Source of the DNA: Bacillota bacterium
GTDB lineage: Bacteria; Bacillota; Syntrophomonadia; Syntrophomonadales; Syntrophomonadaceae
Length of the DNA stretch: 64,000 nucleotides
Reading direction: 5' to 3'
NCBI GenBank assembly: GCA_029550685.1
Contig: JAKPGY010000091.1
Location: forward strand, 1-64,000
Made by a program: the position numbers and the translations under genes. The notes beneath the pieces were generated by a model, which was not told the DNA's origin, ran no database searches, and saw only the letters and a list, made by a program, of their open reading frames with translations. The stretch's first letter is position 1. Each line of letters begins with the position of its first letter. This document shows, one piece after another, positions 20,692 to 22,153 of this stretch.

Positions 20692-22077
20692 TCATACAAG
20701 ATTACGCATCCAGTCATGATGATAGCTTATGGTGGGCAGGAACTCCTGCTGGTGGTGATTAAAGGGGTAAAGACGCTGGTAGTAATTTGTATTATTGGCG
20801 ATTTGCCGCAGCAGCGAGGCCAGCCGGTCAATTTCTTCCCGGGTATTATAGGCAGCCAGGCTGATGCGAACCATACCCGGCCAATGAGCAGGACTAACCT
20901 GCCTCCAGTCTGACAATGGACGTTCAGAGTTGATGTTTAAAAGTCTGCGCACATAATTCTGGGCGCAAAAACAGCCGGTTCTTACTCCAATCCCTCCTTC
21001 ATGGCAGAGGATGACGCCCAGTTGGGCATGAGGGATGGAGGATAGGTTAAAAGTGATTACCCCCACCCGGGGCTGCGAGCCGTATATAGTTATACCTGGA
21101 ATAGCTGATAAAACTGCCAGGGCATGATTGGTAAGTTCATCTTCATAAGCGGCCATTCTATCCAGACCCAATTGCTGCAGGTATTGTAAGGTATCCGCCA
21201 GAAGGATAGCTCCTAGTACATTGGGAGAACCGGCTTCCTCCCGATCCGGCAGACCAGCCCAGATGATTTGCTCTTTAGTAACCAGCGACACAGTTCCTCC
21301 CCCGGTATGATCAGGATTACCCAGCTGGAAAAACTCACGGGGACCGATAAGAGCTCCGCAGCCAAAAGGAGCATATATCTTATGGCCGGAAAAGGCTAAA
21401 AAATCAATATGGCTGGAGTCACTATGAGGTTTCATGTCTACAGGCAAGTGGGGTACCAGCTGGGCTGCGTCTACCAGGATAAGAGATCCGTATTCATGGG
21501 CCATGGCTGCCAGGTAATGTATATCATTAATATGGCCGGTTACATTGGAAGCCCCACAAACCGCCAACAGCCTGGTATGAGGATAGTATTCCTTAAGCAT
21601 TTTCTCCAAAACAGCAGTTTGTAAACAGCCTTTTTCATCAACAGGTACGTATTCTACCCGGGCTCGAAAACGCCAGGGCAGATCATTGGAGTGATGTTCC
21701 ATTTCGGTGGATATAACCAGATCACCAGCTTGCCAGGGAAACCGGTAAGCCAGTTTATTTATAGCCTCAGTGGTATTTTTGGTGAGGATCACTGTGTCTC
21801 GATCCAAGTCAGCTTTCACAAAATGTCCGATAATATCGTGGCTTTTGTCATAGTAATAAGAAGACAGCCGGGATTTGTGCCCGGTTCCCCGGTGAACTCC
21901 GGAATACCAGCGCAGGTAATCACCCAGGCGTTCGACTACCGGCTGCAGAGCTGGGGTGCTGGCAGCGTTATCAAAATGAACATAGGGGGCCTGACGGCTG
22001 CGCCGCGTAGGGACCCGGCAGTCTATCCCTATAATTTGGCGGCGAAAGGTTTGAAAGGGAAAACCCCGCTGTTTAAT
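20692..22077 (-). CDS. Class V aminotransferase (cysteine desulfurase-like), apparent ATT start
   Basis: A PLP enzyme related to SufS-type desulfurases. The PLP lysine is in FSGHKIYAPFG (about residue 233) and the cysteine loop is GVRTGCFCAQ. The first ATG/GTG/TTG in frame is GTG 21819, but 86 conserved codons lie upstream of it, including VHFDNAASTPALQPVVE and WYSGVHRGTGHKS, which the family needs. That reading frame is open only back to a TAG at 22081-22083. The sole plausible start is ATT at 22077, eight bases after GGTGG. This gives 461 residues. Alternatives are a mutated start codon or initiation at ATA or CTG. The physiological substrate is unknown. Confidence 0.8.
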   Translation of the reverse strand: MKQRGFPFQTFRRQIIGIDCRVPTRRSRQAPYVHFDNAASTPALQPVVERLGDYLRWYSGVHRGTGHKSRLSSYYYDKSHDIIGHFVKADLDRDTVILTKNTTEAINKLAYRFPWQAGDLVISTEMEHHSNDLPWRFRARVEYVPVDEKGCLQTAVLEKMLKEYYPHTRLLAVCGASNVTGHINDIHYLAAMAHEYGSLILVDAAQLVPHLPVDMKPHSDSSHIDFLAFSGHKIYAPFGCGALIGPREFFQLGNPDHTGGGTVSLVTKEQIIWAGLPDREEAGSPNVLGAILLADTLQYLQQLGLDRMAAYEDELTNHALAVLSAIPGITIYGSQPRVGVITFNLSSIPHAQLGVILCHEGGIGVRTGCFCAQNYVRRLLNINSERPLSDWRQVSPAHWPGMVRISLAAYNTREEIDRLASLLRQIANNTNYYQRLYPFNHHQQEFLPTISYHHDWMRNLV

Positions 22078-22153
22078 AGCCTATCCCACCTTTGGAACTG
22101 TTTAATCTATACTATGTACACCTAGTGTTTTTGTCACTGTTAGGTGCAGCTGG

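Follow-up and report, generated by a model that had tools for sequence, protein, structure and literature searches.

Starts at AUU, AUC or AUA (hereafter AUH, or ATH in DNA) have been recognised in very few bacterial genes. The infC gene starts with ATT in Bacillus subtilis (PMC6097659) and with AUA in Staphylococcus aureus (PMC13009471), and AUH starts likewise limit pcnB (AUU) of E. coli and cvfC1 (AUU), ccpN and citZ (AUA) of S. aureus (PMC13009471). The AUH start of ccpN is kept from S. aureus to B. subtilis, and AUU and AUA starts yield about 10% of AUG expression in S. aureus (PMC13009471). The first-pass annotation of the locus described here regarded ATT starts as rare and named infC of E. 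coli; the rarity stands, and pcnB, cvfC1, ccpN and citZ show that infC is not a unique case. The present gene, which encodes a desulfurase-like enzyme, resembles infC of the same genomes in its AUH start and in the spacing of its Shine-Dalgarno (SD) sequence, which is 11 for infC and mostly 8–11 at the ATH codons of the present gene. Unlike infC, it encodes an enzyme of sulfur metabolism and no translation factor, so the autoregulatory logic of infC does not apply; its SD is weaker (duplexes of -6.8 to -10.6 kcal/mol versus about -15 kcal/mol), and its AUH start is not universal in relatives. It shares with pcnB, cvfC1, ccpN and citZ the use of an AUH start by a gene other than an initiation factor gene, whereas the proteins are unrelated and AUU, AUC and AUA swap with AUG at one position inside one bacterial family. 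A literature search for a non-AUG start in any cysteine desulfurase found none reported, which is a weak negative given the limited coverage of subscription papers.

The window, that is, the whole stretch of 64,000 nucleotides analysed here, carries on its minus strand a reading frame (22080–20692) that opens after an in-frame TAG (22083–22081) and closes at TGA (20694–20692). Read from an ATT at 22077–22075, the coding sequence (20692–22077, minus strand) specifies a class V PLP enzyme of 461 residues with matches to Aminotran_5, TIGR01979 and PDB entries. The score against PF00266 (Aminotran_5, aminotransferase class V) is 291.6 bits, above the gathering cut-off of 21.5, and cysteine desulfurases in the PDB match with E-values down to 1.7e-65. 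The enzyme shares with SufS and CsdA its fold family and the blocks around the active-site Lys, His and Cys (SGHK, MEHHSN and RTGCFCAQ), which are invariant or nearly so in an alignment of homologues (A1); K222, C360 and H117/H118 are invariant there. By analogy with E. coli SufS, we take K222 to be the PLP lysine and C360 the substrate cysteine, and assign H117/H118 in the same way. Unlike SufS and CsdA, the enzyme scores under the curated cut-off of the SufS profile TIGR01979 (285.8 versus 475.1 bits), and unlike SufS it has a DsrE2-like partner gene, with no SufU or SufBCD seen in the stretch. The product is best read as a SufS-like, probably sulfur-mobilising PLP enzyme. Homologues found by scanning the contigs of named genomes are distant (≤48% identity), and the protein of G001, another species of the same genus, is 85% identical to that of the window's genome (G000).

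No ATG, GTG or TTG occurs in this minus-strand frame between the in-frame TAG and a GTG at 21819–21817, which is the first canonical start codon of the frame and lies 86 codons past the ATT. These 86 codons encode VHFDNAASTP and WYSGVHRGTGHKS. Over 73 codons ahead of the GTG, comparison of G000 with G001 gives a dN of 0.069 and a dS of 0.645, and over the remainder of the gene 0.098 and 0.757, respectively. Since dN/dS upstream of the GTG resembles that of the rest of the gene, the upstream codons are coding and under strong protein-level constraint. Re-reading the sequence agrees with the first-pass annotation, which had described a frame without a standard start and with 86 codons of family sequence upstream of the first one, closed upstream by TAG and with GGTGG eight bases before an ATT. 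That the GTG is nevertheless the start, the upstream part being untranslated or a relic, would be suggested by its being the first standard start codon in frame. Such a start would remove the DNAA..TP and Y..VHRG.G.KS blocks, which are invariant in 15 homologues (in A1, residues D25, N26, A27, A28, T30 and P31 and the block from Y47 to S58), and would leave the low upstream dN/dS unexplained, so that the GTG is rejected as the start and its use has a practically negligible probability.

The codons preceding the conserved FRRQIIG are GCT ATT AAA CAG CGG GGT TTT CCC TTT CAA ACC. After the in-frame TAG and before this motif, the ATT, 10 codons ahead of FRRQIIG, is the sole near-cognate codon. It is preceded by the SD sequence AAAGGTGG (22093–22086, minus strand), which includes the GGTGG at 22090–22086 and gives an anti-SD duplex of -9.9 kcal/mol at an aligned spacing of 10, within the genome-wide 5–95% range of 5.5–12.6 (median 9). 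The SDs at ATH codons are close to those of ordinary genes, whose medians are -11.1 kcal/mol and a spacing of 9. The initiator tRNA of G000 is normal, with a CAT anticodon, a C1:A72 mismatch and a GGG/CCC stem, and 150 ordinary genes start with ATG, TTG or GTG behind a good SD, so initiation is unlikely to be generally altered or relaxed. Folding of the leader RNA gave a stability no greater than that of shuffled sequences, and an Rfam scan of the locus gave no match above threshold. The position of the ATT, its SD and the normal initiator tRNA, together with the comparison of relatives below, lead us to conclude, with a probability of roughly 0.86, that translation of an intact gene begins with AUU at 22077 and that this is a weak AUH start of the infC/pcnB/ccpN type, conserved in relatives.

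Leaders were aligned across the family over the stretch between a conserved promoter element and the (F/L)R(R/K)xIxG motif, in line with the first-pass suggestion that orthologues be aligned. G001 has an identical start, ATT-AAA-CAG-CGG-GGT-TTT-CCC, although the spacer before it differs (GAGGTGGGATAAAC-ATT versus AAAGGTGGGATAGGCT-ATT in these two species of one genus). ATG stands at this site in two further genomes of the genus, G002 and G003, so the weak start is dispensable. The ATG of G002 and G003, and the fragmented state of the window's assembly with its 7% contamination, could point to a freshly damaged start or an assembly error in place of a true or recent ATG, as the first-pass annotation had allowed. 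Because G001, an independent sequence from another species, shares the ATT and the next codons behind a different spacer at a dS of about 0.7, and because ATT, ATC or ATA stands at the same codon in other genera, a recent lesion or base-call error is in effect ruled out and retains only a very small probability, and the other option of that annotation, a real ATT start, gains support.

In most relatives the start is the codon at -10 ± 1 relative to the motif. ATG occupies -10 in G013, G018, G068 and G069, -11 in G002, G003, G029 and G073, and -9 in G022 and G035. ATT is found at -10 in G000, G001, G011, G023, G036 and G072, ATC in G008, G006 and G030, and ATA in G028 (read by eye) and in G004, which also has ATT at -11. 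An ATH codon thus lies exactly ten codons before the motif in seven genera of the family. With one representative per genus, the probability of this by chance is about 2e-8, or 3e-5 when any position from -9 to -11 is accepted, both figures being indicative because the -10 register was picked post hoc. Four of the seven genera have no usable canonical start: in G000, G001, G004 and G030 no canonical codon ahead of the motif is served by an SD, and the only one in G011 is an ATG 8 codons inside the ATH and two before the motif, without an SD. The other three (g6, g21 and g4) have an in-frame GTG inside the SD, 2–3 codons upstream of the ATH (G008, G028, G006 and three g21 genomes). This GTG is 0–3 nt from its SD, with duplexes of -3.8 to -4.0 kcal/mol where computed, so that it is a less likely but still credible candidate for an alternative start. 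In G004, G012 and G030 the corresponding GTG is out of frame or is followed by a stop, and looks like part of an extended SD (GGTG), not a start.

The GTG of the SD also bears on the idea that translation begins at a canonical start in another frame and reaches the gene by a programmed frameshift, or that ribosomes reinitiate after a two-codon ORF, GTG-GGA-TAG/TAA, overlapping the SD. G000 and G001 carry GTG GGA TAR, and G030 carries GTG TTC TAA, but the register of this mini-ORF relative to the ATH codon varies, it is missing in the ATH lineages G011 and G004, its GTG belongs to the extended SD, and no common slippery sequence was seen in the compared leaders. Both routes are improbable, and direct initiation at the ATH codon remains the preferred reading.

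At -10, ATH and ATG are both missing from G012, whose sister G030 carries ATC, and G012, G007, G027 and others have an ATG, TTG or GTG start elsewhere in the leader. A tree with outgroups requires a minimum of 6 switches between ATH and canonical starts, some of them inside genera g1, g2, g9 and g10, and ATH is found in most of the deepest lineages (G030, G004, G008/G028, the G023 group and G006). This distribution suggests that ATH came early and gave way to AUG several times, the direction being tentative.

To place the gene within its genome, we scored coding potential ahead of the first canonical start in 882 kb (about 30%) of G000, which contains 675 ORFs whose upstream stop falls within the scored sequence. 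The desulfurase-like ORF has the top score (16.7) and infC ranks fourth (13.0); on inspection by eye, the two ORFs ranked between them probably reflect a wrong-frame call (L209) and a frameshifted gene (L204). The desulfurase-like gene and infC are clear outliers among the 675 scored genes, and folC, described below, proved an unanticipated third. The infC gene also lacks a canonical start, having GGAGGTG-N8-ATC/ATT-AGC-AAG-GAT with a spacing of 11 in all 18 of the genomes in which its N-terminus was found. IF3 is apparently missing from G001; since L20 is missing too, an assembly gap is the most likely cause. As a separate observation, the gene at L204:4158-5087 encodes an S-layer-like protein and appears frameshifted with respect to its upstream part, continuing from another frame.

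Use of the ATT with no regulatory role, the trait drifting neutrally in a gene of low expression, would fit the six or more switches on the tree, including those within genera g1, g2, g9 and g10. Against this, ATH recurs in deep lineages and in seven genera, and among the roughly 675 genes no more than one or two others resemble the desulfurase-like gene, so that drift, while a serious contender, falls somewhat short of an even chance.

The fifth rank in the survey is folC (L216:17002-18327, G000:C114, minus strand), which was compared across L244–L254. In G000 and G001 it has no ATG, GTG or TTG ahead of the conserved N-terminus, and in 10 of 11 genomes an ACG preceded by strong GGAGGGTAT-like SDs is found exactly 48 codons ahead of GTNGKG. 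The 3' end of valS runs through this ACG in another frame, with CAA CGN encoding Gln-Arg in most genomes, and these valS codons may forbid ATG at the folC start. The constancy of CAA in the overlap is suggestive because CAA makes up only 33% of Gln codons in G000. In several relatives a canonical codon occurs deeper inside folC, so a conserved ACG start is a possible, candidate assignment.

Upstream of the desulfurase-like gene, the aligned leaders of 30 relatives point to a conserved -10-like promoter element, CATAGTATA (22116–22108, minus strand), and a -35-like element, GTGACAAAAA (22137–22128, minus strand; general form GTNNCAAA). The former contains CATANNNTA, which resembles the -10 of sigma-K promoters; the sigma-K consensus adds to this -10 a -35 with AC some 15–17 nt upstream. 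Most of the 30 leaders show GTNNCAAA, then about 13–14 nt, then CATAGTATA, with CATA invariant and the AC dinucleotide of GTNNCAAA present in only part of them. The gap in B. subtilis sigma-K promoters is 14–16 nt (PMC517825). The sequence CATAGTATANNTWAA occurs only once in G000, at the desulfurase-like gene, and about once in each of the other genomes, mostly at this gene. Across many of the family's genera the combined element CATAGTATA(N2)TWAA (22116–22102 in the window) likewise occurs about once per genome, mostly before this gene, and is a conserved, very gene-specific putative promoter element. Since CATANNNTA resembles the sigma-K -10 and spoIVA is carried by 46 of the 54 genomes of the family, among them every one of the 28 of good quality, expression in the mother cell during sporulation is possible. 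Directly upstream lies a DsrE2-like (DrsE_2) gene (22633–22154, minus strand; PF13686, E 1.3e-56), a homologue of which adjoins the desulfurase-like gene in nearly all of the relatives' loci examined, the two forming a conserved pair.

A plausible course of events would be as follows. The gene for a SufS-like enzyme would be transcribed from its own gene-specific promoter, possibly at the time of sporulation, and the enzyme would pass sulfur to the DsrE2-like carrier encoded next to it. A good SD at normal spacing would set the initiator fMet-tRNA on the AUU at 22077 in the fashion of infC, and the AUH codon, a trait that recurs in this gene within the family and is probably old, would keep translation low and make it sensitive to IF3 and to initiation fidelity. 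By analogy with the ATC/ATT start of infC in the same genomes, regulation by IF3 through start-codon discrimination is plausible. The fuller proposal, that AUH is a translational brake on a late-sporulation sulfur-mobilising enzyme whose synthesis tracks IF3 or initiation fidelity in the mother cell, is tentative and on the whole rather unlikely.

Genes with AUH starts are missed or truncated by standard gene finders, which here would cost 86 codons and essential residues. Comparing relatives is enough to recognise the present start, infC serving as an internal control. The alternation of AUG and AUH at one position in close relatives is a natural experiment on why weak starts persist. If the translational brake is real, it would be a case of infC-like control acting on a gene that is no part of the translation machinery, in use in several genera and with AUG as an interchangeable alternative.
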